A DNA stretch of 64,000 nucleotides from Rubricoccus marinus (lineage in GTDB: Bacteria > Bacteroidota > Rhodothermia > Rhodothermales > Rubricoccaceae): assembly GCF_002257665.1 (NCBI RefSeq), contig NZ_MQWB01000001.1:3359119-3423118 (forward strand), read 5' to 3'. Below the pieces are notes generated by a model, which searched no databases, had not been told where the DNA came from, and was given only the letters and a program-made list of their open reading frames with translations. Each line of letters opens with the position of its first letter. The stretch's first letter is position 1. A program made the position numbers and the translations under genes. Shown piece after piece: positions 3,735-56,119 of the stretch.

Positions 3735-5678
3735 CTACCCCCGACCTGCGAGGGCGCGCGCCTCGGCGGAGCGCCCGGCTTTGTGCAACGCCTCAATGGT
3801 GGCCTGCCGCAGCGGCTCGTCGTGGGCGGTCGTGCGGAGGCGGGCAAGCCAGCGATCCGCGAGAGCGCCAAGCGAGCCTCTTGCGCGGTGCACCCGGATC
3901 AGGCTGGCGTAGGCGGCGGGGCCGTCCAGCGCAGCCGCCCTTTCCCAGGCCAGTGCCGCAGCGTCCCACTCGCCCACGCTCTCGTACCACCGGCCCGCTT
4001 CTGCGTGGACGACGAACGCCTCTGGCGCGAGCCGAGCCGCGCGCGCAAAGGCGTCGCGGGCCCTATCGACTTGGCCGAGCGCCGCGAGGGCGCGGCCCTG
4101 AAACGCGCCGATCCACGCGCTTTCTGGATCCGATGCCTGGAGTTCCTCTAGCACCTCAAGCGCGCGCTGCGCGTCGAGATCGACCGCAAGAGCGAGGGCG
4201 TCTTCAGCCACGCGAGAAGCGGCCCGGGCGTCCAGGCCCGGGCGTTCGAGAGCGGGCGTGGCGTCGGTCTGAAGGCCGGAGCCGGCGAGGGCCGCCTGCG
4301 CGTCCGCGCGGCCTCTGGCGACCAGGGCGAGCGCGAGTCGCGCGGCGCGGATCGCCTGCGTGGGATCACGGTTCCATTGCGCGAGGCGTAGCGCGACCCG
4401 CGGATCGTCGCCAGAGGCCAGATCGCGCGTTGGCACGCGGGCCTCGGGAAGCGGCAGCGAGAGCGCGTACGCTGCGGCAGCCTCCGGCGAGGGCGCGCGC
4501 GCGCGCCAGAGGGCAGCGACGCGGCGCACCGCGTCCAGATCGTCTACGCGGTGGGCGGCTCGAACGGCTGCGCGAGCGTCTGCTGCGTCGCCAGAGGCTC
4601 CAAAGGCGGCTTCGTAGAGGCGAGCCGCATCAGTCCAGCGGTCGAGAAGCGCGTGGGCGCGGGCGGAGCGGCGGAGCGACCAGGCGGCGTTGCCGCCCAT
4701 CGCGCGGAGCGTGTCCAGAACGGCCTCGGCCTCCACGGGCCGCGCGCTCGCCGCGAGGGCGTCGCCCAGGCGGGAGACGACGGCCGTGTCCTCTGGCGCG
4801 ATCTCCCGCCATGCCTCCAGCACGCCGACAGCTGCGGGCGCGAAGCCGACCTGCTCGTACGCCGCCGCGACGCCGTCGTACGCGGCGGGCCTGTCTGCAA
4901 AGCGCTCCAGCACGTCCCCGAAGGTCTCGGCCGCACGCTCCGTCTCGCCAGAGGCCAGATAGGCGCGCCCGGCGAGCAAAGCGGCGCTGAGGTCTTCGGG
5001 CGCGGCCTCGGCCAGGCGAGCGGCGGAAACCGAAAGCGCCGCGGCATCGCCAGAGGCCGCATCGGCCTGGGCGACGAGGCGGAGCAGGACTGGATCTTCG
5101 GGCGCGAGGCGGAGCGCGGCTTCGGCGACCTCGCGGGCCTCTGGCGCGCGGTCCAACGCGAGCAGCGCCCCAGCTTCGAGGGTCCGCGCGTTCAGCATCT
5201 CCGGCGCGATCTCGCGCGCCTCGCGCGCCCAGGCGAGTTGCTGCTGGGGATCCGACGAGCGCACCGCGGCGACGAGCCGCACCTGTGCGGCGCGCTCGCG
5301 GGCGACCTCTGGCGTCATGCCGGGCGGCGGACTCCGACGCAGGGCGTCCAGCAGCGGAATCGCGTCCTCGAAGCGTTCGAGCGTGAGAAGGGCGTCGGCG
5401 CGGAGCGCCGTCAGGAGCGCATCGCCGGGGAAGCGCTGGAGCGCGGAGCGGGCGGCTTGCTCGGCGCCAGAGGCGTCGCCGGAGCGGAGGCGCGCGGAGG
5501 ACAGCGCGACGTGCGCCGACGCCAGGCCCGGCCTCTGGCGAACGGCGGTTTCGGCGTGGCGCGCAGCCTCGGCGTAGCGCCCGGCACGGTAGGCCTCGTC
5601 CGCCCGGGCCATCGGGTCCGAGGTCTGAGCGCTCGCGCCAGAGGCGAGCGAGAGAAGGAGGAAGACGAGGAAGCGCAT
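3735..5678 (-). CDS. Exported tetratricopeptide-repeat protein
   Basis: Protein of 647 residues starting with a signal peptide (MRFLVFLLLSLASGASAQ) and then consisting almost wholly of degenerate 34-residue TPR units, starting with DEAYRAGRYAEAARHAETAV. Such solenoids are protein-binding scaffolds, here probably periplasmic. An upstream ATG at 5696 would add six residues before the signal peptide; the ATG at 5678, preceded by AGGATGG, is preferred. It is the last gene of the four-gene envelope operon, 30 bases after the FN3 gene. It is rich in octamer-derived ASG/PEA tripeptides. A scaffold role for the giant protein upstream is inference. Confidence 0.8.
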   Translation of the reverse strand: MRFLVFLLLSLASGASAQTSDPMARADEAYRAGRYAEAARHAETAVRQRPGLASAHVALSSARLRSGDASGAEQAARSALQRFPGDALLTALRADALLTLERFEDAIPLLDALRRSPPPGMTPEVARERAAQVRLVAAVRSSDPQQQLAWAREAREIAPEMLNARTLEAGALLALDRAPEAREVAEAALRLAPEDPVLLRLVAQADAASGDAAALSVSAARLAEAAPEDLSAALLAGRAYLASGETERAAETFGDVLERFADRPAAYDGVAAAYEQVGFAPAAVGVLEAWREIAPEDTAVVSRLGDALAASARPVEAEAVLDTLRAMGGNAAWSLRRSARAHALLDRWTDAARLYEAAFGASGDAADARAAVRAAHRVDDLDAVRRVAALWRARAPSPEAAAAYALSLPLPEARVPTRDLASGDDPRVALRLAQWNRDPTQAIRAARLALALVARGRADAQAALAGSGLQTDATPALERPGLDARAASRVAEDALALAVDLDAQRALEVLEELQASDPESAWIGAFQGRALAALGQVDRARDAFARAARLAPEAFVVHAEAGRWYESVGEWDAAALAWERAAALDGPAAYASLIRVHRARGSLGALADRWLARLRTTAHDEPLRQATIEALHKAGRSAEARALAGRG

Positions 5679-5708
5679 GGGACCCATCCTACGCACGCGG
5701 CGCGGCGG

Positions 5709-7721
5709 CTAGCGCCTCGCGCGGACGGCCTCGCTCGGCGCGCCCTCGTTGCCGGACGTGTCCACGGCGCGGACGCGGAACCACGGCCCAAAGTCCGTCG
5801 GCACGCGCAGCGTCGTTTGGGTCAGAGGCTCGCCCACGGCCTGGAACACGCCGGTCGGGATGCTGGAGGATTCCACGACGTAGTGCGCGAGGTCTTCGGC
5901 CGGCACGGCGGGCCAGGTGAGCACCGTCACGTCGCGGTCCAGCCGCGCGCGGAGGTTGTAGACCGGGCGCGGCGGGTCGGGGTCGGGCCGCGCGAACGCC
6001 AGAGGCTCGGAGCGCGGGCCTTCGTTCGCGAGCGTGTCCACGGCGGCGACGGCGTACGTGTACCGCACCGCGGTGAGCGCCGTCGTGTCACGGAAGCTCA
6101 GCGCCACGTCGGACACCTCCGCCAGAGGCTCTGAATCACGGTAGACGATGTAGCGGCCCACGTCGCGCGAGGCCGAGGCCTGCCAGCGGAGAACGGTCTG
6201 GCGCGAGGCGTCGTCCACGAGTGCGGCGAGGTCCGTCGGCGGAGCGGGTGGCGTGCGGTCCGGGAGTTGGAGCACCACCGCGGCAGTATCGGCCGAGAGC
6301 GAGGACGTATCGCGGGCCACGACGGCGTAGCGGTAGAAGGCGCCTTCTTCGAGCGCGCCGGTCTCGCCCGTGTCGAGCCAGGAGGCCTCTGGCGTGGGCT
6401 CCGCGTTGAGCTGCACGTCGGCCTCGCCACCGTTGTAGGGCCCGCCGTCCGCGGCCACGCGGCGGCGCAGCACGAGCGCGCCCTCGTAATCCGCGGCCTG
6501 AGGTGCGGTCCACGCGATGCGCACGCTGCCGTCCGCCAGAGGCTCGGCGCTCAGGTTCGTGACCGCGGACGGCGGCGTCGTGTCTTCCACCGTCGCGGCC
6601 ACGGCGCCGCTCTGGCGGCTCTCGTTGCCCATCTCGTCTACCACCACGACGGCGTAGAAGTACGCGCCCGGCTCGGGCCGGTCGATGTAGACGGTTTCGA
6701 GGACCGCCAGAGGCTCGGCGTTGAGCCGCTCGTACGGGCCGTTGATGCGCTCGGCACGGAGCACCCAGTAGCCCGCCGCGTCGGAGACCACGCTGACCGG
6801 CCACGTCACGTCCACCACGTCGGCCCCGTCCTCGCGCCGCGCGTTCGCGCCGATGCCGTCCAGCGGCGGCGGCGGCTCTGCCGCCAGAGGCTGGTAGCGC
6901 GCCGTCTCGGTCCGGGCCTCTTGCGCCATCGCGTCCACCGCCGCGACCGCCACCGCGGCGGTTTCCTCTGGCGAGGCAAGCGTGATGACGGTGGAGTACG
7001 CCGTCTGGTTGTCCACGCGAAGGATCGCCGGGCCCCCGTCCACCGGCACCATCTCTCCGCCGGCCTCGCGGTAGAGCCGGAAGTGCACCACGCCGTCGTC
7101 CTCTCCCCCGCTCACCAGGGGGTTCGCCGGGTACTCCCAGGCCACGGTCACGCGCCGGCCCACATGATCCAGCGCGAGGGAGTCGGGCGCCAGAGGCCTC
7201 TGGCGCCGGATGGTGACGGTGGCCTCGGCGGCTTCACCATCCGGCCGGAGGTCAGCGTCGACGCGGGTCGCGCGGTACGTCACCGTCGCGCCGTCGGGCG
7301 CGGTCTCGTCGATGACCAGGCGGCCCAAGCCACGCGCTACGTCGGGCGAGAGAAATGCCGCGAGGCGGTTGGAGACGGGCCCGGTGCGGACGCGGAAAAA
7401 CGCCTCGGCGGGCGTCTCGTCGTCCTGAACGAGTGCTTCCAGCGCTTCTACGCCGGCCACGCGCACGAACGCGCTTGGCGAGACCGGCGCCGCCAGAGGC
7501 TCGGCGGTGAGCGTGTCGAGGATCCCGCCGCTCTCACGCGTGACCACCACGCCGCCATCGGGGCGGAGCGGCAGCGTGTGGTAGACGTGCGTCCGGCCCG
7601 CCTCGTCGGTCAGCACGCGGAGGCCTGCGCTGGCGAGGCCGCCCGAGGCGGATTGCGCCGAAGCCTCTGGCGCGAGAAGCACGAGGGCGAAGGCCAGAGA
7701 CAGGAAACGGGAGAGCGTCAT
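5709..7721 (-). CDS. Secreted fibronectin type III repeat protein
   Basis: Protein of 670 residues with a signal peptide (LSLAFALVLLAPEASAQ) and about five FN3-like beta-sandwich repeats. Each repeat has the pattern PP-x-A-x(T/N)L near its start, W in the B/C strand (for example RIAWTAPQAADYEGALVLRR) and a closing Y-x-Y/F-x-V-x-A-x-D. No enzyme domain, membrane anchor or T9SS sorting domain is seen. The gene lies 55 bases after the 4150-aa gene and 30 bases before the TPR gene, so it is probably co-transcribed. It is likely a surface or periplasmic adhesion or assembly partner of the giant protein, whose own C-terminal part also has FN3-like modules. Confidence 0.8.
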   Translation of the reverse strand: MTLSRFLSLAFALVLLAPEASAQSASGGLASAGLRVLTDEAGRTHVYHTLPLRPDGGVVVTRESGGILDTLTAEPLAAPVSPSAFVRVAGVEALEALVQDDETPAEAFFRVRTGPVSNRLAAFLSPDVARGLGRLVIDETAPDGATVTYRATRVDADLRPDGEAAEATVTIRRQRPLAPDSLALDHVGRRVTVAWEYPANPLVSGGEDDGVVHFRLYREAGGEMVPVDGGPAILRVDNQTAYSTVITLASPEETAAVAVAAVDAMAQEARTETARYQPLAAEPPPPLDGIGANARREDGADVVDVTWPVSVVSDAAGYWVLRAERINGPYERLNAEPLAVLETVYIDRPEPGAYFYAVVVVDEMGNESRQSGAVAATVEDTTPPSAVTNLSAEPLADGSVRIAWTAPQAADYEGALVLRRRVAADGGPYNGGEADVQLNAEPTPEASWLDTGETGALEEGAFYRYAVVARDTSSLSADTAAVVLQLPDRTPPAPPTDLAALVDDASRQTVLRWQASASRDVGRYIVYRDSEPLAEVSDVALSFRDTTALTAVRYTYAVAAVDTLANEGPRSEPLAFARPDPDPPRPVYNLRARLDRDVTVLTWPAVPAEDLAHYVVESSSIPTGVFQAVGEPLTQTTLRVPTDFGPWFRVRAVDTSGNEGAPSEAVRARR

Positions 7722-7776
7722 CGGGTGGGAGTGGATCGGTCGTCATTCTATACACCGAGAAAGCCGGCGCGGCGCG

Positions 7777-10700
7777 TCACCGGGCCGCGCGGCGCTGCTC
7801 CTCGGCGGCGACGGCGGCCTTGAGGTCGGGGTCGCTCAGGCGAGGCAGGCCCAGGTTTTCGCGGCAGGACCGGACGGCGTCGGCGGGGTCGAGCTCCAGC
7901 GAATTGTCCAAGCACCGCGTCAGGGCGGCGCTGGCGCCTCCGCCGCGGCGGCGCTCTTCTTCCTCCTGGATCATGCGGCGGAGTCCGTCCGCGTCCGGCC
8001 TGGGCATCCCTGCCCGCTCTACGCACTGCTGAACGGCCTCGCGGGCGCTCACGCCAGAGGCCTCAGCGTCGATCACGCACGCGCCGTACGCGTCCAGCAG
8101 GGCCTCTGGCGGTTGGTACGCCACCCACGCCGTGCGCGAGGACGTGCGGCCGACCCCGTTGCGAGCCTCAATGGTGATCGCGATGTCGGAGCCGGGAGCG
8201 GGCAGCCGTGCGGCCTCTGTCGCGGTCAGTCCAGCCGAGGCCTGTCCGTTCGGCGCCAGAGGCACCTCGATAACGGTCGTGGCGCCCACGAGCGAGCGGC
8301 CTCCAAAGCGCGGCACGCGCACCTTGACGGTTGCAGACACGACGCCGGTTTCCGGGTCCTGGGGCGGCGTCGCGCGGACCTGGGCGGTGATGCGGCCCGC
8401 GCGGTCTCTCTCGAACGAGACCGAGGCCTCACTCACGACGGGCGCCGTCGGGTCGTGGACGACGAGCGACGTGGTGGCGCGGCTCGCGACGCCCTGGCCG
8501 TTGATGGCGCGGACGCTGACCCACTGCTCGCCATCGCGGGCGTACCGCCATGTGAGGTGCTGCGCGGCCGGGCGCAGGGCGACGTCCTCCGGAACGGTCC
8601 AGTCCACACGGAGCGAGTCCCGCGGCCACGCGCGGAGGTCGTCCAAGCCCGGGGCGCTCCCGACGGCCACCTGGTAGCCCAGGATGCCGCTCTCGTTGTC
8701 CCGCGAAACGCGCGAGAGGGTTAGAACGGGCCCGCCGAGAGCCGGCCACACGCGGACGGTCGGCGTCGTGGGCCGCGTGGGGTCCGCGCGGCGGATGGGC
8801 TCGGTGACGACGGGCGCGCTCAGGCCACCCGCCTGGTTCTGCGCCCGCGCGATAATGCGGAACGAGCCCGTAAAGGGGAACGGGAAGGCCGCCGTCCGCG
8901 AGTTGAAGCGGCTCTGCTGGTTCCAACCCCACCCCTGGTTCGTGGAGTCGAACCGGGCGACGCCAGAGGCCGCGACCCACCCCAGGTCGTAGTGGCTGAT
9001 CCCGCTTTCCGGATCGCTCCCGTCCCACGTCACGTCAACGGTTTCCGCGTCGATGTCGCTCGTGTCGAACTCGATGCGCTGCGCGTCCCACTCTGCGCGG
9101 GCGCGGACCGCCGGGCGCTGCACCGCCGGCCCGGCGGGCGGGATCACAACCGGGGCCTCTGGCGCCACGCTCAGCGTCACCTCGGGCGGCGTCGCGTCGT
9201 GCGTGATCCCCTCGTAGCGGGTGTAGACCGAAGACACGGCGCCTGCGCCGTTGGTCGCGCGGACGGAGAGGTAGACCGGCGTGGAGCCGAGGTTGAGGCC
9301 GTACAAGGTTCCCGCGATGGCGTCGCCCGCGCCCCAGCCGCCCCAGCCCGTCGCCTGCGTGCTGGTGCTGCGGTCGCCCTGGAAAACCTCCCAGTTCCGC
9401 ACGTCTGTTCCGCCTCGTGTGGTGCCCAGCGCCACCTCCCATTGCGCGATGCCGCTCTCGGGATCGCGGGAGGACAGCACGAGGTCCAGGCGTGAGGAAT
9501 CCGGCGCCCACGTCGTGCCTGCGCGGCGCGTGTTGGGTAGGACGGCCGTCGGGACCGCTGGCGGCGTCGCGTCCGTGCCGTCCACCGATCCGCCTTGCCC
9601 CTGGGTAGACGTGCCGCCCTCCGCCAGAGGCACGGTTGCCTGCACGTAGCGGGTGGCCGTCACGCCGCCGGCGCTTCTGGCGCGGACGTAGAGCGTGGTG
9701 CGGGCGGCGGTCTGCGTGCGCGAGCGGCGCAGCATGGGGAACTCCTGGATCGCGATGTTCGCGTCGGGGAACCAGCCGTCTCCCGGAGACGCGGTGCCTG
9801 AGGTGAGGTACGGCACATCATCGTAGACCGACGCCAACGACGGGCCGTTGACGCGGAAGGCGTAGCTCAATTCCGGCACGCCAACCGGGTGCCCCACGCC
9901 CCAGATCACGCTGGCCATGCGCAGGCCGGCGTCGTCGGTATCGCCTTCCAGGCGGAGGTAGGCGATGTCCGGCGGCGCGAGCGCGTCCACCACGTCCGCA
10001 CGAGCGTTGCGCACGCCAGAGGCCGCGGGTAGGCCGGCGTCTGTCCGCCACGCCTCGTACTGCTCAATCATGCCGTATGTGGACACCAGCATCCCGGCCT
10101 TGAGGCCGTACATCTCGTCGATGGTGGACGTAAACGTGGCGTGCGCCGTTGTCAGCGCTGGCCGCTGCGCGTCGTACGCGGTCACGAGGCGTTGCACGGC
10201 CGACTCCGACGCGGTGACGACCTCGGCCAGCCCGCGCTTGGGCATCTCCAGCCAGAACTGGTCGGCGGCCTGGTTGAACGTGGCGCGGACGCTGTTGCGG
10301 AGCGTCGTGTTGTTCGGACTCTGGCGCAGATTGTTGACGCTCGCGATGAAGTCGTTGGCGCGCGAGGTGCCCTCGCTCACGTTGCCGTTGAACTTCCAGA
10401 TCGCGCGGAGCCTCTCCGCACCGGCCTCTCCAATTTCCTGGGCTTCGGTCGCAGAGAGTCCGTTGTTCATCCAGGCGTCCCTCCAGTGCGCGGCGTTGCG
10501 GACGGCTGTCCGCATCGCGCCGCCAGAGGCCAGCGGGAGTGAGGGCAGGAGCGCCTCGCGCGTGGAGGCCCACTCGCGGAGGTCCCACAGGCGCTGCACG
10601 GCGTAGGCGTAGTACCCGTCCAGGTCCAGCGATGCGTTCACAAAGCCGTAGCCGACGGCGTTGACCGCGGTGCCGGTCGTCTCCACGGCGCTGATGTCGG

Positions 10701-13700
10701 GGAGGCCGGCGCCCCAGTTGACCGCGCTCGCGCCGTCCAGCACGAGGTCCACGAGCTTGGCGCTCGCTGCCGCCGCTCCCAAAGCGTCGCGGTACGCCTG
10801 GTCGAGAGCGGCGAGGTCCGCGTCGAAGCCGTCGAGCGCGTCCGCGCCTGCGTCGTACGCGGCCACGTCGTAGGTGAAGCCGGGGCTTTGGAGCACCTGC
10901 CCGCCCGCGCCAACAACGGCAGGGCGGATCGCGGAGACGGGGTTCGGGACGTTGAAGGCCGCCGGGTCGCCAGAGGTCGTCGCGTCTCGGAGTTGGGTGG
11001 CGAGGGAGCCCAGCACGGTCCGGGCGGCCGCCAAGCGTTGCGCCACCTGATCGGCCTCGGCGCTCACAGCCTGGATCTTCTGCGCGACGGCGTCGGCGTC
11101 GGCCTGGGAGGCGCGCACGGCGGGCTGAGACTCCGAGTGCGCGTTGCCCGCAAACGGCGTGGACGCAGAGCGCTGGCCGTAGTAGCCGGACTGCTGGTCG
11201 GCGGTCGAGCCGCGCATCACGTTGGTATAGAGCCAGCCCTCATACGTGCCCGGGTCCGAGAACGCGGCGGTGCCGAACAGTGCGCGCTCGTCGGCGATCA
11301 CCGCGTCCAGGACCGGGCCTCTGGCGGCGGAGGCCGGGACATCCCACGGTCCCTTGTTGGCGAGGAGCATGTGCGTGCCCGCGAGGCGGATATCCGAGGC
11401 GGACACGCGGTAGTTGGCGGGGTTCGCCAGCTCGGCCGCGAGGGCCGCCTGCGCGGCTGCGAGCGCGTCCTTGGCTGCGGCCATCTCGCTCTGGGCCTCT
11501 TGCGCCTTGGTCTGCGCGCCAGAGGCGTCGGCGCGAGCCTGCTGGATGGCGGCGTCCAGGTCGGCGTTACGACCGGTGCCCCAGTCCACATCGCCGCGGG
11601 AGTCGCCCTTGACCCACCCCGCGATGGTGCCATCGAAGACGAAGGCGACGGTGACTGTGGCGCTGCCCGCGAGGTAGACCTCGTAGAGCGCGTCGCTCCG
11701 TTTCAGGAAAAGACCCTTCGCGTCGGCGCGGAGCGCGGCGAGGCCGCCGAGCACGTCGAAGCCGATGTAGAGCCCGGCGTAGGCGCCGAACGGGTTGGTG
11801 CCGTTCGGCAGGTTCCAGACAAGGAGGTCCATGCCTGCTTCTGCCGAGACGATGGCGAGGTCGCCGCTGACCTCGACGGTCAGGTCCAGCAGCATCCCGT
11901 CCGGGCCGGCCATGAAGTCGCCGTCGGCTTCGAGGAAGGAGAGCACGTCCGCCTCCAGGTAGCCGTCGATGCCCCAGACAGCGGGGCCGCTGCCCTGCTT
12001 GAGCGCGAAGAAGTCCAGCCCGGCCTCGGCGTCCAGCGCGGGGCCGAACTCGGCGTAGAAAGCCACGCCGCCCTCGACGCCAGAGGCGCCCGATCCATAG
12101 AGGACCGTGAGGTACATGTCGGCTGCGAGGAGGTTGGTGCCGGGGTTGCTCTGCCCGTACATCGTCGTGTTCACGTCTAGCTTGGTGAACTGGTCGGTGA
12201 CGGTGAGGAGCACGTGCCCCTTCAGCATCGCGGTGCCCATCGAGGGCTCTTTGATGACCGAGGCGCCCGCGTAGAGGAATGCCGCGAACTTCAAATCGCT
12301 GACCTCTGGCGTGGGCCCGACGAGCCGGAACGGGCGCCCGTTGGCGGTGGCGCCGGCAAGCGCGGTCTCGACGAGCCTGAAGTCGTCGATCTCAGGCCGG
12401 TAGAAGAAGCCGCCGCCGATGCCGTCCAACTCGATGATGACGGGGATGATGGGGATCGGGACCGTCGCGGCGGCGAAGATGCCGAAGCGGAGTTCGTCGT
12501 TGAGCGTCGAGATTTTGCCTGCGGCGCCGAAGCCCGTCTGACCGAAGGTGCCGCCACCGGCGACCTCGAAGAGGAAGCCCTCGTTCGGGACCTGGCGGTA
12601 GCGCATGGACGCCTTGAGGCTCGCGGCGTCGCTCATCGCCATCTCCACGTCGGTCAGCGCGATCTCGAAGGCGCCGTTGGTCTCCTCGTAGAACAGCACC
12701 TCGGCGATGCCGCCCACGAAGGCGTCCGTAAACGAGATCCGCAGCGCGGGGTTGGCGGCGCCGTCCCCGAAGCGGAGGTACTGCCGCACGGCCACGTCCA
12801 CCATCTCGGTCTCCGCGGAGCCTCTGGCGCCAGAGGCCCGGCGCTCCATCTGCAGCGTCTCGTTCTCGGCGTAGGTGAACTCGCCGACGGTGAGCGAGAA
12901 GATCTCCGAGAGCGTGAACGTGGCGCCGCCGGCGAAACGGCCGATGTTCTCGACGCCTTCGGTGGAGACGATGAAGTCCTCGAAGCCCGCCGAGCCCTCC
13001 ACGGCGTCCAGCGCGAAGCCGGCGCGGCCTCCGAGCGTGAGGCGGAACGGGAGGTTGCCCCCATTCGGCCGCTGCACGTTGGTCTCGATCTGGAGAGCCG
13101 TAAGGGCAAAGCGGAAGAAGTCGTACTCGAACTCCAGCGGGTTGCTCGTGGACACGCTGGACGACGACACGCGCCACGCGGTCTCGCCAGAGGCCGTGAG
13201 CCGCACGCCGTAGTCGGTCAGAATGTCGGCGGCCTGGCCGAAGTAGATGTGCTTGGTGGGGTCGCTCCGGTCGTTCTCGACGTAGAGGACGCCTGTGGCC
13301 AGCAGCGCGGACTGGGCGGGCTGCGCGATGTTGAGGTCGAGCGCGGCGGCGGTGAGCTTGAGCGTGCCGAAGTCGCCTGGGATGGCGAACTCCGTGTTGG
13401 GGTTGTTCGCGAAGTCGAACGTAGGGCCGGTAATCGTCGGGCGGCCGGTGCGGTCGATGCGGGCGGTCATGGACGCGCTGCTCGCGACGGGCGCGGGGAG
13501 CGTCGCCGTCGCGGCCAGCTTGAGCGCGAGGCCGCTGGCGACGTTCTGCCCGGCGACGATGCTGACCTCGTCCACGACGAAGGCGTCCGGGATGACGGCG
13601 ATGTCGCGGAACAGGACCGCCTCGCCAGAGGCTAGCGACACGTCTCCGTCGGAGCGGACGCGGAGGCCGTCGACCGTGAGCGTCTTGTCGAGGAGGACGG

Positions 13701-20229: not shown

Positions 20230-20232
20230 GGG

Positions 20233-21984
20233 CTAGAAGCGGCGGCTGTAGGCGACGCGGGCGCGGACCTCCTGGAAGGACGGCGCGCCGGCGTCGGCAG
20301 CGGACGTGAAGCCGGTGACCTGGAGGCGCAGCGCGTCGCCAGAGGCGAGGCGGTAGGTGCCGGTCAGGGTGCCGGTGAAATGGGTCTGGGTAAAGCTGCC
20401 GACGGCGTAGTCGGCCGTCGTGCGCGCGACGCCCGCGCTCGCGGCGAGGTTGAGGGCGCGCTCGAGAAAGGCCTGCCCGGCGCCGAGCGTGAGGCCGGTG
20501 CGGAGCGAGCTGTTCTCGCCCAGCGCGGACCGGGCGGCGTCGGCGGTGGCGGTGAGCGTGAGGCCGGAGGGCGCGGCGAACGCGTAGCTGGCCGCGCCAG
20601 AGGCGTTGTCGGCCTCGGCGCCGGGGCGCGTGCCGTCCAGCACGTCGGCGGAGCGGTCGCGCGAGCGGACAAGCGTGGTGGCGAGCGTGGCGGTGTGGGT
20701 GAGGCCGGACTCGCGGCGGAGGCTCAGCGTCGGCGCGAGCGTAACGGTCTGGGTGGTCTGGAGCAGGCCGGGATCGGGCGTGGCCTGTGGCCCCGAGCCG
20801 AAGACGCCCGCCTCGCGCTCGTTGCGGAGCCCGTTGTAGGCGGCGGTCAGGCTCAGCCATTCGGTCGGCCGCGCGAGGACCGTCCCGCCGAAGCCCAGCC
20901 GCTCGCCAGAGGCGATCTCCTGGTCCGAGAGGTTGGTGGCCGTGCGCGAGAAGTCGCCGGTGAGCGCCAGGCGGCCTTCGAGCATCGTCGCGCGGGGGCG
21001 GAGGCGGAACGTCGCCTCGTCGTCGCGCAGGCGCGGCGCGCCAAGGGTCCGGTAGCCGGGGGCGACGCGGCTGTAGGAGGCGTCGAGCGCCAGGCCCAGG
21101 TCGCTCGCAAGGCCGAGCGCGGCGAGGTCGGCGAAGAGGTCGGCCTCGTAGGCGTTCTGCGCGAAGGCCCCGGCGCGCGAGACCGCCAGCGGGCGGAGGT
21201 AGCCGGGGATCTCGCCGTCGCCAGAGGCCGCGTCCAGATCGGGCGTGAACGCGCTCGTAGCTGCCAGGCCGCGCAGGCGGATCGCGCCGTCCAGCAAGGA
21301 GACGCCGGCCTCTGGCGCGAGCGTCGCGCTGGCGCGGGGGCGCAGGAGGAAGTCCTCGGCGTCGAGGCCAAACTCGTCGAGCGATCCTGCGACATCGCGC
21401 GCGACGGCGAGAGAGAGCCCCCCGAACGTGCCGCTCGGGTTGCCGACGCGCACGCGGCCCGCCCACAGGTACTGCTCGTAGGCCTGGAGCCCGGCGCCAG
21501 AGGCCGCGTTGCCCTCGGCGGTGATGCCGCTCTCGGCCTGACGCGTGCGCCCGCCTCCAGCGAGGACCTCGATGCCGGAGCGGCGGAGCTGAAGCAACCC
21601 GCCGCGCGGCGTGAGGCCGGAGAGCACGTACGGCGAAAGGGTCGGGGACACGTCGCCCAGTTCGGCCCCGCCCCAGGACCACCGCGTCGCGAGCCGGATG
21701 CGGTCGAGGTCTTGGCGAAACTCGGTCCCCTCGTCGCTGGACAGCGAGAGCGAGAGCCGCGTGCCGATGCCGAAAAGCGAGAACCGCGCGTTCGCGCCCA
21801 CGCGCCCCAGCAGCCCCGGCCGCCGCGCCTCGATGCCGCTGGCGCCGTAGGCCTCGCCAGAGGCCGTGACCGAGCCGCTGAGCTCCAGCGGGCCCAGCGA
21901 GGTCTGCGCGCGGGCGCCCGTCACGAGGGCCTCTGGCGCGAGGACCGCGAGGGTTAGGATCAGGAGAGGGAAGCGAAAAAGCAC
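20233..21984 (-). CDS. Outer-membrane beta-barrel protein
   Basis: Signal peptide (MLFRFPLLILTLAVLAPEAL) followed by alternating amphipathic strands and a C-terminal strand ending in RVAYSRRF, the terminal aromatic signature recognised by the BAM machinery. At about 583 residues it could form a large barrel; no plug or TonB box is seen, so it is not an obvious TonB-dependent receptor. The GTG at 21984 is chosen because the shared promoter-like element ends at 22012; a GTG at 22005, preceded by AGAGGGGG, would add seven residues. First gene of the operon with the 4150-aa, FN3 and TPR genes; the stop is 3 bases from the next start. It may anchor or export the giant protein (inference). Confidence 0.8.
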   Translation of the reverse strand: MLFRFPLLILTLAVLAPEALVTGARAQTSLGPLELSGSVTASGEAYGASGIEARRPGLLGRVGANARFSLFGIGTRLSLSLSSDEGTEFRQDLDRIRLATRWSWGGAELGDVSPTLSPYVLSGLTPRGGLLQLRRSGIEVLAGGGRTRQAESGITAEGNAASGAGLQAYEQYLWAGRVRVGNPSGTFGGLSLAVARDVAGSLDEFGLDAEDFLLRPRASATLAPEAGVSLLDGAIRLRGLAATSAFTPDLDAASGDGEIPGYLRPLAVSRAGAFAQNAYEADLFADLAALGLASDLGLALDASYSRVAPGYRTLGAPRLRDDEATFRLRPRATMLEGRLALTGDFSRTATNLSDQEIASGERLGFGGTVLARPTEWLSLTAAYNGLRNEREAGVFGSGPQATPDPGLLQTTQTVTLAPTLSLRRESGLTHTATLATTLVRSRDRSADVLDGTRPGAEADNASGAASYAFAAPSGLTLTATADAARSALGENSSLRTGLTLGAGQAFLERALNLAASAGVARTTADYAVGSFTQTHFTGTLTGTYRLASGDALRLQVTGFTSAADAGAPSFQEVRARVAYSRRF

Positions 21985-22011
21985 GTGGGGGCGCGGGCGG
22001 CTCACCCCCCT

Positions 22012-22094
22012 CTACATGGTTTTCCGCGGCACCTCGTCACGCGGCGCTCATTTTTTTTCGGTCAGGTGACGAGGTGGGCGCCAAATCCATGTAG
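22012..22094. promoter_or_regulatory. Symmetrical divergent promoter/operator between the two giant-gene units
   Basis: An inverted repeat with arms CTACATGG-N10-CACCTCGTCAC (22012-22040) and GTGACGAGGTG-N10-CCATGTAG (22066-22094); the N10 spacing is identical in both arms, with a T-rich centre (22051-22058). Read outward, each arm offers GTGACG, 17 bases, then ATGTAG, so each may be a promoter for its own side. It may also be a dyad operator. Left start codon at 21984/22005, right at 22153. Confidence 0.65.
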
Positions 22095-22152
22095 TGGGAA
22101 GTGACCGAGCCTCCCCGATGCCGCCGCTGGCGCGCCTTCGCCCCCCGACTCC

Positions 22153-25100
22153 GTGCTTCGTTTTCTCGTTTCCTCGCTCTTCTTCGTGCTCCTCGCGGGC
22201 GCGCCGCTGGCGCAGACCGTGACGTGGACCGGCGGTGGCGACGGCACCTCGTGGAGCGACGGCGCGAACTGGAGCACGGGCACAACGCCCGGCCCCAGCG
22301 CCGACGCGGTGGTCGACCTTCGGGACGCCGCGACCGTCGTGGACGAGCCGCTGACCATCGGCTCGCTCTCGCTGACGGCCATCAACGCGTCCATCGCGCT
22401 GAGTGCGCCTCTGGCGGTAAGCGGCGACGTGCGCTTCGACCACGCGAACGCACGCATCACCGGGCCCGAAGACCTCACCATCGACGGGCGCCTGCGCTGG
22501 AAGAGCGGCACCTTCCAGAGCGACGCCGCTGCGCCCGCCACCGTTCTCGCCAGAGGCGGCGCGACGTTTACAGGAGCCTCGGCATCATCCGGCAACGTCA
22601 AAAACCTGGACGGCTCGCGGCTCGTGCTCGCCTCCGGGACCGAAAGCGACTTCGCGGCCTGGTACTTTTATGGGCTCAACGGCGGCACCCTGGAGGTGCA
22701 GGAAGGCGCCACGCTGGAGTTCTCAGAGAGCGGGACTGTCAACGTGTTCCGCGTGGGCGCCGGCTCCACGCTCGCTCCTCAGCTTGTCGTGGACGGCACG
22801 CTCACGCGCTCGGCGGCGGGCTCGCCTTTGGAGATCCAATGGGGGGCGCGGGTCGCCGGCGAGGTCGCGGTGACGGCGCCAGAGGCCAAGCTGGTGTTCG
22901 AGGGCGCCTTCGAGGACCAGAACGCCACCTACCGCGCCGGGGCGGGCACGCTCGTGCTCGGGCCGTCGGACGACGTGCCGGTCGTCTTCGGCGAGGGGAG
23001 CCAGTTCCTCGTGGCCTCTGGCGCCACGCTCGGCCTCGCCAGAGGCGACCTCGAACTCCGTGGCCTGCTGGACAACGGCGGCACGCTCGCGCTCGGCACG
23101 GACGCCAACGTCGGCGGCAATGGCGTGGCCGTGACGCTTCCGGCATCGCTCTCGGTGGAGCGGCTCGGCGGCGACGCGCTCCGCATCGGGCAACGCGCGA
23201 CGGTCACGCTCGCGCGCACCGCGCCGCTTTCCGTCGCCTCGCTCTACATCGACTTCCAGGGCGTGCTCAACCTCAACGGGCCTCTGGCGGTAAGCGGGGA
23301 CCTCACGCTCTGGGACCAGTCCTCGCGGCTCTCGGCGCCAGAGGCCGTCACGGTGGGCGGGCGCCTGACGTGGCGCGGCGGGCGCATCGAGGGCGGCGGA
23401 ACGGTAGAGGCCAACGGCGGCGTCTCGTTTATCGGCGAGGGCGCGTCGGCGTCGTACACGAAGGCGCTGGACGGCACGAAGCTGGTGCTCCCCGGCGGCA
23501 CGAGCAACACCTACGAGGCGTGGTACTTCTTCGGCGCCAACGGCGCCGAGCTGGAGATTCAGGAGGGCGCCACGCTGGACCTCTCGGTCGGGCAGATGTA
23601 CCGCGGCTTCTGGGTGGAGGCGGGCAGCACCGCCCCGCCGGTCCTCGACGTCGATGGCACGCTGGTCCGCAGCGCGTCCTCGTTCCCGTCCTTCCGGCTG
23701 GATTGGGACAGCGAGATCAGCGGCACGCTGCAGCTAGAGACAGCGGACGAAGAGATCCAGATCCGCGGGGCGCTCACGGACGAAGGCGGCACCTACAGGG
23801 TCACGGCCGGAAGCCTGGTGTTCGGCACGCCCGACGGCACCTCGGTCCTTCTGACCCCGTCGAGCCAGATCCTCGTCAGCCCCGGCGCGACTCTGGGCGT
23901 GGCGCGCGGTGACGTCACGGCCTCTGGCGCGTTCGACGTCGGCGGAACGCTCGCGATCAAGGACGCCAGCGGCCTCGGGGGGGCGGGCGGCTCCCTCACC
24001 CTGCGCGAGGGCATCGGGCTGGAGCGCCTCGCGGGCGACGGCCTCATCGTGGGCGGCAACCGGGGAACGTTGATCCTGGAGCCGGGGCTGGCCTCGACGG
24101 TTCCCAGCCTCGCTATCGGCTTTGGAGGCACGCTCGACCTGAGATCGGACCTGACGGTAACGGGCGCGTTCGAGCACGCCAACTCCAGTGCCCGCGTGCA
24201 AGGCCCCCGCACGCTGACCGTTCGGGGGCTCACGACGTGGACGGGCGGGGTCCACGCGGGCGAGGGCGAAACGCGGTTCGAGGGTGGCCTGACAGCGCTC
24301 CAGAATGGTGGCTCGGCGAGCTGGTACAAGCGCATCGAAGGCCGCACCCTGACCGTCGCCTCTGGCGAGACCGCCGCGTGGCCCGGCTCGGCCCGGACGA
24401 CCGTGAGCGACGGCGGGCGCCTCGTGATCGAGCCCGGCGCGGCGCTGGACCTCTCGGCAGACGGCCCGGACTGGCGCACCGAAGGCACCGGGGGAACGCT
24501 GGACCTCCAGGGAGACCTCGTGTTTACGGGCGACTTCTCTTGGTCGATGGCCTGGGATGTGGAGAACACCGGCACGGCGAGCGTCTTGGGCGCAGGCACC
24601 CGCATCACGGGCACGTGGGACAACACGCCGGACGGGCGGCTCCAAGGTGAGGGCCAGATCGACCTGGACAACGGCACCGGCGCCCTCGTAAACCGCGGCG
24701 TCGTGGCGCCAGAGGACTCGGACGGCGGCACGGCCATCCTCCCCGTCCGCGGCAACTGGGCGGCCGGACCGGGCACGCTGGACATCGGGATCGGCGGGAC
24801 GGAGCCGGGGACGGGGCACGACCAACTCACGGTCACGCGCACGGCCACGCTCTCCGGCACGCTCCGCGTGCGCCTCGCCGACGGGTACGCGCCAGAGGCC
24901 GGGGCGGAGTACGCCATCGTGACGGCCAACGCGCTCGCGGGCTCGTTCGACGAGACCGATCTGCCGGCGGGCTTCGAGGTCGTCTACGAGCCCACGCGCG
25001 TGCTGCTGCGGGCCTCTGGCGCGGGCGGCCCCGGCCTCGCGGACTCGCCGTGGCCGATGCAGGGGGGCGACCTCGCCCACACGAACCAGGCGCCGGTGGA

Positions 25101-28100
25101 GGGCCCGACCGGCCTCGCGCTGGACTGGGAGTACGACGCGGGCGTCAGCTTCGCGCTCGTCAACCAGCCCGTCCTGGGCGAGGACGGCACGCTTTACACG
25201 TCCGACATCGGGGACTTCCTGTTCGCGGTCAACCCGGACGGGACCGAGCGGTGGCGGGCCGAAACCGGCGGCGTGCGCAACAGCGCTGCCGTCGCCGAGG
25301 ACGGCACGATCTACTCCGGCTCTAGCGACGGCGGCCTGTATGCCATCAATCCGGACGGCAGCCAGAAGTGGCGCTTCAACGCTGGGGATCGCGTCAACAC
25401 CTCGCCCGCCATCGCGCCCGATGGCACGGTCTACATCGCCTCCAACGCGCAGAAGCTTTTCGCGGTCAACCCGGATGGAACGCTCAAGTGGGAGCGCAAC
25501 CTGGGCGGCTTCGCGCTGTCCTCGCCCGCCGTGGCGGAGGACGGAACGGTGGTGACGGGAAGCTCCGCCGGCAACGTCGTCGCCTTCGCGGCCGACGGCT
25601 CGTTCCGGTGGAACGCGGCATTCGAGGGCGTCACCCGCTCCCCCACCCTCACGCCCGATGGGCGCGTGCTGGTGGGGCTGGACGAGCGCTTCGTCGCGCT
25701 CGGGCTGGAGACGGGCTCTCAGATCTGGGAGCGCGTCGGCGTGACGCAGGGTGAGACGCCCGGCTACCTCGCGGGGGCAACGCCGCTCACGTTCGCTCAG
25801 AGCGGAAACAGCCTGGTCGCGCTGAGCGTGGCCTCTGGCGAGACCGTGTGGGAGGTGGACCTCGGTGAGAACACGTTCCCGTCCGCCGTCACGCTTGACG
25901 CGCTGGGCAAGGCCTACGTGCTCCGCCGGTTTCCCGGCGAGACGGGCGCGCTCCTCGTCCTCGACGCCGCCTCTGGCGCCGTCCTCTCCACCACGCCCAT
26001 CGACGCCCGGCTGGAGCGGGCGCCGATCCTGGACGACCAGGGCCGCGTGATCGTGCCGACGTACGACGGGCTCCTGGCGTTTACCGCCGCGGGCGGTCCG
26101 GTCCTCAGCGTCTCGCCAGAGGCCCTCGGCTTTGGCGAGGTCGCGGCGGGCACGACGGAGACGCGCACGCTTCAGCTGAGCAACACCGGTGGCTCGCCGC
26201 TGACCGTGTTCGACGTGTACGAGGGCGGCGCCCAGCCCGCCTTTGCCGCCGCCTTCGACGACGCCGTCCTGATCGCGCCCGGCGCGAGCGTGGACGTAGC
26301 GATCACGTTCACGCCGCCAGAGGCCGGCGCCTTCGAGGGGCAGATATTCGTCGAGTCCGACTCCGAGGAGAGCAGCTTTGTAACCGTCCAGGTCACCGGA
26401 ACGGGCATCGAGAGCGCCACGCCGCCTCTGGCGCGCGACGACGAGGCGACCACGCCCGAGGACACGCCGGTCACCGTGCAGGTGCTGAACAACGACACGA
26501 GCACCGTCAGCGAGCCGCTGGCGATCACGGCGACGACCGCCCCCGCCAACGGCGCCCTCGCGCTCACCAACGGCGGCACGCGCATCCGTTACACGCCAGA
26601 GGCGGACTTCTTCGGGACGGACAACTTCACCTACACCATCACCGACTCCGGTGGCAGCGATACGGCAACGGTGACCGTCACGGTCTCGCCCGTGAACGAC
26701 GCGCCCGTTGCGCAGGACGACGAGGCCACGACCAATCAGGACACGCCCGTCACCATCGCCGTGCTCGCCAACGACGCCGACGTGGACAGCGGCACGCTGA
26801 GCGTGGCCGAGACGACGACGCCCGACAACGGCTCGGTCGAGATCATCGCCGGCGGCTCCGCCGTGCGGTACACGCCAGTGGCGGGCTTCTCCGGCACGGA
26901 CTCGTTCGCCTACACCGTCAGCGACGGCGAGGGCGGGACAGACACCGCCACCGTAACGGTGACGGTCACCGCTGTTGTCCTGCCGCCCATCGCGCGAAAC
27001 GACGCCGCGGCAACGCCCGAGGACACCGCCGTCCGCATCAGCGTGCTCGCCAACGACGAGAGCCGGGTCAGCGAGCCTCTGGCGATCACGGCCACGACCG
27101 CGCCCGGCAACGGCGCCGTGGAGGTGGACGGCGCAGCGATTCTCTACACGCCCGCATCCAACTTCTTCGGGACCGACAGCTTCACCTACACCATCACCGA
27201 CTCCGGCGGCAGCGATACGGCAACGGTCACCGTCACCGTCGCGCCCGTCAACGACGCGCCGCTGGCGACCGACGACGAGGCCGCGACCGACGAGGACACG
27301 CCGGTCACCGTTCAGGTGCTCGCGAACGATTCCGACATCGACAGCGAGACGCTCACGGTCGCGAGCGTCACCCAACCGGCCTCTGGCGCGGCCGTGATCG
27401 TGAGCGGCGGGACGCGCGTGCGCTACACGCCAGAGGCCGACTTCTTCGGGACGGACGCCTTCACGTACACCGTCGCCGACGGCGCGGGCGGGACCGATAC
27501 GGCCACCGTGACCGTGACCGTCGCGCCCGTCAACGACGCGCCGGTGGCGCAGAACGACGCCGTCGCAACGCAAGAGGACACCGCGGTCCGCGTCGACGTG
27601 CTGGCCAACGACGCGGACGCCGACGGCGACGCGCTGAACGTCGCGAGCGTGACCGCGCCGGCCTCTGGCGCCGCGGTGATCATCGAGGGCGGCGCGGCGG
27701 TCCGCTACACGCCCGCGCTAGACTTTGTGGGGACGGACAGCTTCACCTACACCGTCGCCGACGGCAATGGCGGGACCGATACGGCGACCGTGACGGTGCA
27801 GGTCGGCGGCACGAACGACGCGCCGGTGGCTGCCGACGACGCGGCGAGCACGCCAGAGGATCAGGCCGTCGAGATCGCGGTCCTCGCCAACGACTCCGAC
27901 CCGGATGGCGACGCCCTCACGGTCTCCGCGCTCGGCACTCCCGCCAGCGGCTCGGTCACGACCAACGGAACGACGGTCACGTACACGCCCGCTCCGGACT
28001 TCAACGGGACGGACCTCTTTACCTACACCATCACCGACGGCGTGCTCACGGCCTCGGCGGCGGTCACGGTCACGGTGACGCCCGTCAACGACGCGCCTCT

Positions 28101-31086
28101 GGCGGAGGCGGACGCCGCGACAACGGCCGAGGACGCCGCGATCACGATCGCCGTCCTCGCGAACGACGCCGACGCCGACGGCGACGCACTAGCGGTCTCC
28201 AGCCTTACCCAACCCAGCAACGGGACCGCCACCACGGACGGCGCGACGGTCGTGTACACGCCAGAGGCCGACTTCTTCGGCACCGACACGTTTGCCTACA
28301 CCGCGAGCGATGGCAACGGCGGAACGGACACGGCGACGGTCACGGTCACGGTCACGCCCGTCAACGACGCGCCTCTGGCGCAGGACGACGCGGCGTCGAC
28401 GAGCCCGAACGAGGCGGTCGAGATCGCGGTCCTCGCCAACGACTCCGACGTGGACGGCGACGCCCTGACCGTCACGGAGGCGACCGGCGCGGCCAACGGC
28501 ACGCTCGCGACCAACGGCGAGACGGTGACCTACACGCCCGCCCCCGGCTTCCGCGGGACCGACAGCTTTGCATACACGGTCTCGGACGGCGCGCTGACCG
28601 CGACGGCGACCGTCACCGTCACCGTCGGCGGCAACGCTCCGCCTCTGGCGGCCGACGACGACGCAACGACGCCAGAGGACCAGGCCGTAACGGTCGCGGT
28701 CCTCGCGAACGACAGCGACCCGGACGGTGACGCCCTGACGGTCTCCAGCGTGACGCAGCCCGCCTCTGGCGCCGCCGAGACCGACGGCGTGACCGTTACC
28801 TACACGCCCGCGCCGGACTTCAACGGCACGGACCGATTTACCTACACGCTCGCCGACGGCGCCGGCGGGAGCGCGACGGCCACGGTCACCATTACCGTCA
28901 CGCCCGTCAACGACGCGCCTCTGGCGAGCGATGACAGCGCCGTCACGCCAGAGGCCACGGCCGTCGAGATCGCCGTGCTGGCCAACGATTCGGACCCGGA
29001 CGGCGACGCGCTGAGCGTCGCGAGCGTCACGCCGCCCGCCTCTGGCGGCACGGCCACGACCGACGGCACCACGGTCACGTTCACGCCCGCGTCCGGGTTT
29101 AACGGCACGGTCGCGTTTACCTACACCGTCACGGACGGCGATCTCACCGATACCGCCGAGGTCACCGTAACGGTCAGCGGCGCCAACCTCCCGCCCATCG
29201 CGCGCGACGACGCGGCGCCCGTCCGCCCCGGCGACTCGGTCCTGATCGACGTGCTCGCCAACGACGAGGACCCCGAAGGCGGCGCGCTCACCATCGCGTC
29301 TGTCGGCACGCCCGCCTCTGGCGGCACGGCTGCGCCAGAGGCCGGGCAGATCCGCTACACCGCGCCCTCGGGCTTTAGCGACACGGACACGTTCACCTAC
29401 ACCGTCTCCGATCCGCAGGGCGCGACCGCGACGGCCACCGTCACCATCACGGCGCAGGCCTACCGCTTCGCGCTGACGGACCTGGGGACGCTTGGTGGCG
29501 CGCGATCCGCCGCGATGGCGGTCGCCGCCGACGGCCGCGTGGTCGGCACGGCGGAGGACGCCGGGGGCGCGCTCCGCCCCACGCTCTGGCGCACCGGAAC
29601 GGGCGCCGCCACGCCAGAGGCCCTCGGCCTGCCAGGCGCGCCCTCGGGCTTCGCGACGGCCATCGACGGGCAAACCGTAGTGGGCGTGCAGTACGGCGCG
29701 GGCGGCGAGGCCGAGGCGTTCCGCACGGGGACGGGCACGCTTCCCGGGCTGGGCGGCACGCTTACCAACGCCTACGGCGTGCGCGAGGGCGGCGCGACGG
29801 TGGGCTCGTCCGCTCCGGCCTCTGGCGGGATCGAGGCGCTGGCGTGGGACGAAGCCGGCGCGGCCACGCCGCTCGGCACGTTCGGGCTCGCGCGCAGCGA
29901 GGCGTTCGGCGTCTCCCCGCTTGGCCTCGTCGTCGGCTATGCGCAGTCTGACGTGGACGCCCGCGCCTTTGCCGGCGCAGACCTGCTCTCCGGCGCTGAC
30001 GGGCGCGCCTACGCCGCGAACGTCTCGGGCGTCGTCGTGGGCAGTATCGGCAACGGCACGGGCGACGTCAGCGCGGTCCGTTGGACCGGGGGAGGCGCGC
30101 CAGAGGTGCTGGACGGCCTCGGCGGCGGCTTTGCCGAGGCGTACGCCATCAACAGCGCGGGCTGGGTGGTAGGCGCCTCTGGCGCGGAAGCAGGCCCTGC
30201 TGCGAAGAGCGGCGGTGCGCCCGCGCGCGGGCCGCTCCCGCTGGGCGGGCGCCTGGCGCCAGAGGCCCAGACGCTGGGCGGCGGTGCGCCTGCCGAAACA
30301 TCCAGCATCAAGCGCTCCGCCAGAGGCGCGGAGGTGCAGAAGGCGGGAGCCTCTGGCGCGATCGAGACGCGCGCGGTGTTGTGGGTGGACGGCCAAACCC
30401 TCGACCTCGGGACGATCATCGACGTGCCGGGCTGGACGCTGCTGGAAGCGCGCGGCATCAACGACGCGGGCCAGATCGCCGGGACGGGGCTTTTCAACGG
30501 CCAGCCTCGCGCCTTCCTCCTCACACCGACTGACAACGCGGCGCCTCTGGCGGTGGCAGACCGCGCAGAAACCGCGATGGGGCAATCCGTTGAGATCGCG
30601 CTGGTCGCCAACGACCGGGACGACGACGGCGACGCGCTAACGGTGGCGGCGCTTCTCGCGCCTGAGCACGGCAGCGTCCAGGCAGCCGGGCCTCTGGCGG
30701 CGCGCTACACGCCCGCGCCGGGCTTCACCGGCGAGGACACCTTCGGCTACACCCTCGCCGACGGGCGGGGCGGATTGGCTCAGGCCGAGGTCCGCGTTCT
30801 GGTCCGCGCCGAGGCGCCAGAGCCCTTCGCGCTTCGCACGCCCGCGCCCAACCCCGCCTCTGGCGACATCGCGTTCGCGTTCACCCTGGACGCGCCCCAA
30901 GACGACGTGCGGCTGGACGTGACCGACCTGCTCGGCCGCTCCCTCGCCGTCGCAACGGAGGGCGCGCGAGACGCAGGCGAGCACACCGTTCGGTTCGACG
31001 TGCGCGGGCTCGCGCCCGGCACTTACGTCTGCCGCCTCCTCGTAGGCGGTCAGGCGCTGATGCGCACCTTTACCGTCGTGCGCTAA
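22153..31086 (+). CDS. Giant T9SS cargo: PQQ-type propeller, tandem Big_9/cadherin-like repeats, HAF repeats
   Basis: A 2977-residue extracellular protein. A signal peptide is followed by residues ~20-960 with a WTGGGDGTSWSDGANWS start and repeated beta-helix-like units (YFYGLNGGTLEVQEGATLEF and a diverged second copy). Residues ~966-1310 are a PQQ/outer-membrane-type beta-propeller (WPMQGGDLAHTNQ, YAINPDGSQKWRF). Residues ~1316-1419 are a HYDIN/choice-of-anchor-like module. Residues ~1424-2434 hold 11 tandem ~92-residue repeats with VLANDSDPDGD and FTYTV(A/S)DG. HAF-type repeats (DLGTLGG) follow, then a twelfth Big_9 unit, and from ~2890 a T9SS type A sorting domain with PAPNP, LLGR, LAPGTYVCRL and final FTVVR. 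GTG start with no Shine-Dalgarno sequence. It should be exported by T9SS and left on the surface or released. Confidence 0.9.
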   Translation: MLRFLVSSLFFVLLAGAPLAQTVTWTGGGDGTSWSDGANWSTGTTPGPSADAVVDLRDAATVVDEPLTIGSLSLTAINASIALSAPLAVSGDVRFDHANARITGPEDLTIDGRLRWKSGTFQSDAAAPATVLARGGATFTGASASSGNVKNLDGSRLVLASGTESDFAAWYFYGLNGGTLEVQEGATLEFSESGTVNVFRVGAGSTLAPQLVVDGTLTRSAAGSPLEIQWGARVAGEVAVTAPEAKLVFEGAFEDQNATYRAGAGTLVLGPSDDVPVVFGEGSQFLVASGATLGLARGDLELRGLLDNGGTLALGTDANVGGNGVAVTLPASLSVERLGGDALRIGQRATVTLARTAPLSVASLYIDFQGVLNLNGPLAVSGDLTLWDQSSRLSAPEAVTVGGRLTWRGGRIEGGGTVEANGGVSFIGEGASASYTKALDGTKLVLPGGTSNTYEAWYFFGANGAELEIQEGATLDLSVGQMYRGFWVEAGSTAPPVLDVDGTLVRSASSFPSFRLDWDSEISGTLQLETADEEIQIRGALTDEGGTYRVTAGSLVFGTPDGTSVLLTPSSQILVSPGATLGVARGDVTASGAFDVGGTLAIKDASGLGGAGGSLTLREGIGLERLAGDGLIVGGNRGTLILEPGLASTVPSLAIGFGGTLDLRSDLTVTGAFEHANSSARVQGPRTLTVRGLTTWTGGVHAGEGETRFEGGLTALQNGGSASWYKRIEGRTLTVASGETAAWPGSARTTVSDGGRLVIEPGAALDLSADGPDWRTEGTGGTLDLQGDLVFTGDFSWSMAWDVENTGTASVLGAGTRITGTWDNTPDGRLQGEGQIDLDNGTGALVNRGVVAPEDSDGGTAILPVRGNWAAGPGTLDIGIGGTEPGTGHDQLTVTRTATLSGTLRVRLADGYAPEAGAEYAIVTANALAGSFDETDLPAGFEVVYEPTRVLLRASGAGGPGLADSPWPMQGGDLAHTNQAPVEGPTGLALDWEYDAGVSFALVNQPVLGEDGTLYTSDIGDFLFAVNPDGTERWRAETGGVRNSAAVAEDGTIYSGSSDGGLYAINPDGSQKWRFNAGDRVNTSPAIAPDGTVYIASNAQKLFAVNPDGTLKWERNLGGFALSSPAVAEDGTVVTGSSAGNVVAFAADGSFRWNAAFEGVTRSPTLTPDGRVLVGLDERFVALGLETGSQIWERVGVTQGETPGYLAGATPLTFAQSGNSLVALSVASGETVWEVDLGENTFPSAVTLDALGKAYVLRRFPGETGALLVLDAASGAVLSTTPIDARLERAPILDDQGRVIVPTYDGLLAFTAAGGPVLSVSPEALGFGEVAAGTTETRTLQLSNTGGSPLTVFDVYEGGAQPAFAAAFDDAVLIAPGASVDVAITFTPPEAGAFEGQIFVESDSEESSFVTVQVTGTGIESATPPLARDDEATTPEDTPVTVQVLNNDTSTVSEPLAITATTAPANGALALTNGGTRIRYTPEADFFGTDNFTYTITDSGGSDTATVTVTVSPVNDAPVAQDDEATTNQDTPVTIAVLANDADVDSGTLSVAETTTPDNGSVEIIAGGSAVRYTPVAGFSGTDSFAYTVSDGEGGTDTATVTVTVTAVVLPPIARNDAAATPEDTAVRISVLANDESRVSEPLAITATTAPGNGAVEVDGAAILYTPASNFFGTDSFTYTITDSGGSDTATVTVTVAPVNDAPLATDDEAATDEDTPVTVQVLANDSDIDSETLTVASVTQPASGAAVIVSGGTRVRYTPEADFFGTDAFTYTVADGAGGTDTATVTVTVAPVNDAPVAQNDAVATQEDTAVRVDVLANDADADGDALNVASVTAPASGAAVIIEGGAAVRYTPALDFVGTDSFTYTVADGNGGTDTATVTVQVGGTNDAPVAADDAASTPEDQAVEIAVLANDSDPDGDALTVSALGTPASGSVTTNGTTVTYTPAPDFNGTDLFTYTITDGVLTASAAVTVTVTPVNDAPLAEADAATTAEDAAITIAVLANDADADGDALAVSSLTQPSNGTATTDGATVVYTPEADFFGTDTFAYTASDGNGGTDTATVTVTVTPVNDAPLAQDDAASTSPNEAVEIAVLANDSDVDGDALTVTEATGAANGTLATNGETVTYTPAPGFRGTDSFAYTVSDGALTATATVTVTVGGNAPPLAADDDATTPEDQAVTVAVLANDSDPDGDALTVSSVTQPASGAAETDGVTVTYTPAPDFNGTDRFTYTLADGAGGSATATVTITVTPVNDAPLASDDSAVTPEATAVEIAVLANDSDPDGDALSVASVTPPASGGTATTDGTTVTFTPASGFNGTVAFTYTVTDGDLTDTAEVTVTVSGANLPPIARDDAAPVRPGDSVLIDVLANDEDPEGGALTIASVGTPASGGTAAPEAGQIRYTAPSGFSDTDTFTYTVSDPQGATATATVTITAQAYRFALTDLGTLGGARSAAMAVAADGRVVGTAEDAGGALRPTLWRTGTGAATPEALGLPGAPSGFATAIDGQTVVGVQYGAGGEAEAFRTGTGTLPGLGGTLTNAYGVREGGATVGSSAPASGGIEALAWDEAGAATPLGTFGLARSEAFGVSPLGLVVGYAQSDVDARAFAGADLLSGADGRAYAANVSGVVVGSIGNGTGDVSAVRWTGGGAPEVLDGLGGGFAEAYAINSAGWVVGASGAEAGPAAKSGGAPARGPLPLGGRLAPEAQTLGGGAPAETSSIKRSARGAEVQKAGASGAIETRAVLWVDGQTLDLGTIIDVPGWTLLEARGINDAGQIAGTGLFNGQPRAFLLTPTDNAAPLAVADRAETAMGQSVEIALVANDRDDDGDALTVAALLAPEHGSVQAAGPLAARYTPAPGFTGEDTFGYTLADGRGGLAQAEVRVLVRAEAPEPFALRTPAPNPASGDIAFAFTLDAPQDDVRLDVTDLLGRSLAVATEGARDAGEHTVRFDVRGLAPGTYVCRLLVGGQALMRTFTVVR

Positions 31087-56058: not shown

Positions 56059-56119
56059 GGTGTGTCCCTCCGGAATGAATGCTAAGGGTTGCCCGTCCTG
56101 TAGTGAATCGTGGTGAAGT

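Follow-up and report, generated by a model that had tools for sequence, protein, structure and literature searches.

A predicted wide β-barrel and a TANFOR-family giant form a conserved envelope module in Rubricoccus marinus and may serve the export or display of giant proteins

The 64,000-nucleotide stretch of Rubricoccus marinus DNA analyzed here (the window) encodes a putatively secreted protein of 4150 residues directly behind the gene of a β-barrel, raising the question of whether such a giant leaves the cell through a barrel of its own or by the T9SS. Four genes run head to tail on the minus strand, encoding the barrel P0001 (20233–22005, 590 aa), the TANFOR-family giant P0004 (7777–20229, 4150 aa), the multi-FN3 secreted protein P0002 (5709–7721, 670 aa), and the TPR protein P0003 (3735–5696, 653 aa). 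Only 3 bp lie between the barrel stop and the giant start, 55 bp between the giant and FN3 genes, and 12 bp between the FN3 and TPR genes. The gene for a divergent repeat protein, P0005 (22153–31086, plus strand, 2977 aa), starts 147 bp from this operon on the opposite strand. The ORF list and translations confirm these five positions and lengths, together with the close spacing, as the original prediction gave them, and by inspection all five translations have a hydrophobic, signal-peptide-like N-terminal stretch. In the flanks of the window, segments 44–2657 and 54775–57499 correspond by Pfam to succinate dehydrogenase/fumarate reductase-type genes and ftsZ/ftsA.

P0004 comprises a signal peptide, a TANFOR/Ig-like N terminus (residues ≈1–300), ≈2600 residues of strand-rich and partly modeled sequence, and a C-terminal part made up of a helical stretch from residue ≈2890, Ig-like repeats, and a short helical tail; domain boundaries outside the modeled residues 1790–2930 are read from the sequence. 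Neither Pfam nor NCBIfam matched the protein, and these searches revealed no T9SS sorting domain and no toxin domain. The missing sorting domain had been part of the original prediction and is also missing in the genome scan. That prediction further called the giant TANFOR-like, which holds as remote homology but not as a direct family match: TIGR02542 (TANFOR; cut-off 67 bits) does not match P0004, whereas a profile built from ten P0004 relatives matches all eight TIGR02542-detected Bacteroidota loci tested (L059–L065 and L067), with E values of 1e-16 to 1e-46. Judged by this N-terminal homology, P0004 is a divergent TANFOR-family protein. The giant at L042/L043 (G011a) measures 6397 aa, and phmmer matches to P0004 from residue ≈430 recur along its length.

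TANFOR proteins have been described as a polymorphic-toxin class, with an export route that is only hypothesized. In its opening and neighborhood sections, the study of Jana et al. 2020 (PMC7073777) describes TANFOR neighborhoods as enriched in FN3, SprB repeats, PKD, and T9SS tails, proposes export by the T9SS, and makes no mention of a barrel beside the TANFOR genes; a full-text literature search for TANFOR together with a β-barrel found no paper. In our analysis, two of the TIGR02542-detected TANFOR genes (L061 and L062) have a barrel gene directly upstream. As far as those sections describe the TANFOR proteins of Bacteroidetes, the R. marinus locus shares with them the homologous N terminus, an FN3 protein and a repeat protein with a marginal T9SS tail nearby, and a T9SS in the genome. 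It differs in the 4150-aa length of P0004, in the conserved barrel partner, in that no toxin or immunity gene was found, and in that Gemmatimonadota genomes with no T9SS tail detected carry related modules.

The structural model bears out the β-barrel that had been proposed for P0001. Following the signal peptide, ≈26 predicted strands occupy residues 40–589, and the protein ends in RF; the lumen of the model (pLDDT 76.8, pTM 0.66) contains no plug. No POTRA domain precedes the barrel, as the modeled strands begin at residue 40 and Pfam gave no match. Searches of Pfam and NCBIfam returned 0 matches at E 0.1, PorP/SprF models included, on which ground membership in the PorP/SprF family was rejected, and comparison by sequence with solved structures gave no match either. 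Matching no described family, the barrel is also absent from the literature on TANFOR loci as far as the sections cited above extend. The closest solved folds to the model are MtrB (6r2q_B; E 1.5e-9, TMq 0.46) and the FimD/PapC ushers, matches of low TM-score that are common to many barrels and indicate a wide barrel rather than a specific homolog. The P0001 model is similar to wide barrels in which proteins sit or through which they are threaded, such as MtrB, FimD, and PapC, but P0001 differs from them in that it lacks a sequence match to any solved structure and no pilus chaperone or cytochrome partner was identified. Two-partner secretion (FhaB/FhaC) likewise places a barrel gene next to that of a giant secreted protein; unlike that system, the P0001 model has no POTRA, the giant has no TPS-domain match, and the ≈26 predicted strands compare with 16 in the FhaC barrel. 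Longer relatives of the barrel also occur: in many phylum-sample genomes, listed barrel matches fall in frames of 800–930 aa, and those at L121:7391–9784 (797 aa) and L122:7745–10465 (906 aa) directly precede a CHASE2/nucleotide-cyclase gene, with an FecR protein upstream in L121 and a 249-aa gene upstream in L122.

A conserved neighborhood in relatives had been named in the original prediction as its check, and one was found. Of 99 related genomes, 20 contain the P0004 N terminus. The search turned up no giant in the eight further genomes of the family, one of which belongs to the same genus. Barrel, giant, and FN3 genes stand in a row in several Rhodothermales families, in a second order of this class, and elsewhere in Bacteroidota, and they also occur together in Gemmatimonadota. 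At most loci the barrel gene adjoins that of the giant, usually within 100 bp or overlapping, and among barrel-search loci with a short barrel, a TANFOR N terminus or giant core is present in 15 of 17 from the phylum sample and in 5 of 8 from Gemmatimonadota, counted within the fetched stretch, with some giant-less loci lying at contig ends. The order is giant-FN3-(TPR)-barrel in L112 and L116 and barrel followed by FN3 and TANFOR in L119, and it is also permuted in L113 and G063; because gene order changes in this way, the co-location is not mere synteny. In G063:C9 (L048/L049), the giant is apparently split into a 406-aa TANFOR N terminus and a 3790-aa body that flank the barrel and FN3 genes, and G011a carries giant and FN3 genes with no adjacent barrel. 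Over 18 modules, distances among barrels correlate with those among giant N termini (r 0.81, permutation p 5e-4) and among FN3 proteins (r 0.57), values that, lacking species-tree control, indicate co-inheritance at most. Together, these data strongly support a barrel–giant–FN3 module conserved over three phyla, with the TPR gene in part of the loci.

The FN3 and TPR proteins are also as originally described. P0002 matches fn3 at 25.4 bits against a Pfam cut-off of 25, and its relatives adjoin the giant in Rhodothermales, Bacteroidota, and Gemmatimonadota. P0003 matches TPR_19 with an E value of 4e-22; full-length relatives lie near the module in G015, G034, L110, L112, and L113, and weaker ones in L105, G367, and G368, so that the TPR gene is present in fewer module loci than those of the barrel, giant, and FN3 protein. 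P0005 contains Big_9/cadherin-like arrays, a PQQ propeller, and a C-terminal Por_Secre_tail match of marginal score. It had been called a divergent T9SS cargo of 2977 aa; the divergent position stands, whereas the T9SS tail is marginal: it barely passes the 27-bit cut-off of the genome scan with 27.3 bits, and it scores 20.5 bits for the whole protein and 18.2 bits for TIGR04183. P0005 is the largest of three Big_9 genes among the matches listed for the R. marinus genome. A Big_9 gene is found at the module in five compared Rhodothermales genomes (G011, G015, G016, G028, and G063), and the large downstream genes in the Gemmatimonadota examined carry Big_1/Big_2, PKD, or RCC1 repeats. A P0005-type gene is thus a frequent but not constant neighbor of the module.

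The region between the divergent genes contains two mirrored promoter-like elements. One copy of TGACGAGGTG-N10-CCATGTAG, with a spacing like that of a sigma-70-type pair, faces the barrel operon (22012–22039, minus strand), and its mirror image faces P0005 (22067–22094, plus strand). Allowing up to three mismatches, the 4.43-Mb genome holds these two exact copies and two others, each at three mismatches. The whole mirrored arms span 39 nt and are 74% complementary, and the best 28-nt arms have 21 matches versus a maximum of 19 in 100 shuffles. In Roseithermus sacchariphilus (Rhodothermales, G015), the barrel and repeat genes are also divergent, and between them lies a mirrored arrangement of 28 nt whose sequence differs. 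The co-regulation suggested in the original prediction thus gains support at the level of DNA sequence, the elements here and the Roseithermus arrangement both pointing to probable shared control of the barrel operon and P0005.

One explanation of the module makes the giant a T9SS substrate that lacks any recognizable sorting tail, with the barrel anchoring it at the surface as SprF does for SprB. All 26 barrel-bearing genomes that were tested, drawn from the sample of the window's phylum or from a Bacteroidetes record, have SprA, and the T9SS may therefore take part in these genomes. The enrichment of T9SS substrates and FN3 proteins around TANFOR genes, as given in the cited sections of PMC7073777, the binding of SprB by the PorP-like SprF (PMC9143113), and the marginal T9SS tail of the neighboring P0005 are consistent with this explanation. 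In type B T9SS systems (PMC9143113), a large surface protein is likewise the cargo paired with an outer-membrane barrel, one of the PorP/SprF-like kind; P0004, however, has no sorting tail that we could find, and P0001, with its ≈26 predicted strands, matches no PorP/SprF model in Pfam or NCBIfam. Further evidence against it comes from Gemmatimonadota, where SprA was not detected in five of seven barrel-bearing genomes and a Por_Secre_tail match in none of the seven (the tail search covered this family only, and genome completeness was not given). In four of the five genomes without SprA (G367, G373, G377, and G401), giant, FN3 protein, and barrel nonetheless occur together. These modules argue against a strict T9SS requirement, though the T9SS may help where it exists, and on balance we regard a tail-less T9SS substrate as somewhat unlikely. 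SprA homologs without a Por_Secre_tail match were observed in the Gemmatimonadota genomes G392, G399, and G429. The co-occurrence of barrel and TANFOR giants, together with the Gemmatimonadota modules in genomes with no T9SS tail detected, most of them also without SprA, lends weight to the original suggestion that the giant may rely on a barrel of its own.

Instead of forming a surface fiber, the giant could be a scaffold that spans the periplasm or associates with the membrane, its amphipathic β region acting with the barrel to move lipid or glycan. The model of residues 1790–2930 (pLDDT 79, pTM 0.45) is all-β and elongated, with many strands of 10–15 residues and a helix at its end, and alternating hydrophobicity exceeds that of shuffles in several stretches of the giant. 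The model weakly matches ApoB100, LptD, and ushers, but with TM-scores of ≈0.10–0.16 by query length, which we read as "amphipathic β" in the modeled region rather than as a specific homolog. An AsmA/TamB-type lipid bridge was rejected, since none of 17 relatives had a Pfam match of this type, and the Ig-like C-terminal repeats and nearby large repeat proteins point to the surface. A scaffold of this kind therefore appears improbable.

The TANFOR-family N terminus of the giant would also fit a polymorphic toxin, an explanation that we set aside as very improbable because Pfam and NCBIfam detect no toxin domain, the C terminus consists of Ig-like repeats and a short helical tail, and the genes downstream encode FN3 and TPR proteins with no recognized immunity gene. 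Chance adjacency of unrelated envelope genes, with which the missing giant in the eight other genomes of the family would agree, is refuted by the recurrence of the cluster in three phyla and in permuted order, and we give it almost no weight.

For P0001, our preferred reading is a dedicated outer-membrane translocon or anchor of the TANFOR-family giant, for and against which we consider the balance to be even; export of the giant through the barrel itself stands at about the same level. In such a mechanism, the TANFOR/Ig N terminus would dock at the barrel, which would translocate or anchor the giant so that its long β region and Ig-like C terminus are exposed at the cell surface. The FN3 and TPR proteins may help assembly. 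The mirrored promoter would probably drive co-expression of P0005, which in genomes with a T9SS would probably be exported by that system to the same surface layer, where the module could have a role in adhesion. More tentatively, and with somewhat less than even confidence, we propose that plug-less barrels of ≈26 strands constitute a new outer-membrane route of secretion or display, by which TANFOR giants are exported without the T9SS in Gemmatimonadota, Rhodothermota, and Bacteroidota. If this is true, the T9SS route proposed for TANFOR proteins would need to be corrected or completed. That the core persists in three phyla, and also in genomes where neither SprA nor a Por_Secre_tail match was detected, suggests that it may represent an unrecognized means of exporting or displaying giant surface proteins; export through their own barrel would give some of the largest bacterial proteins an additional path of secretion or display.
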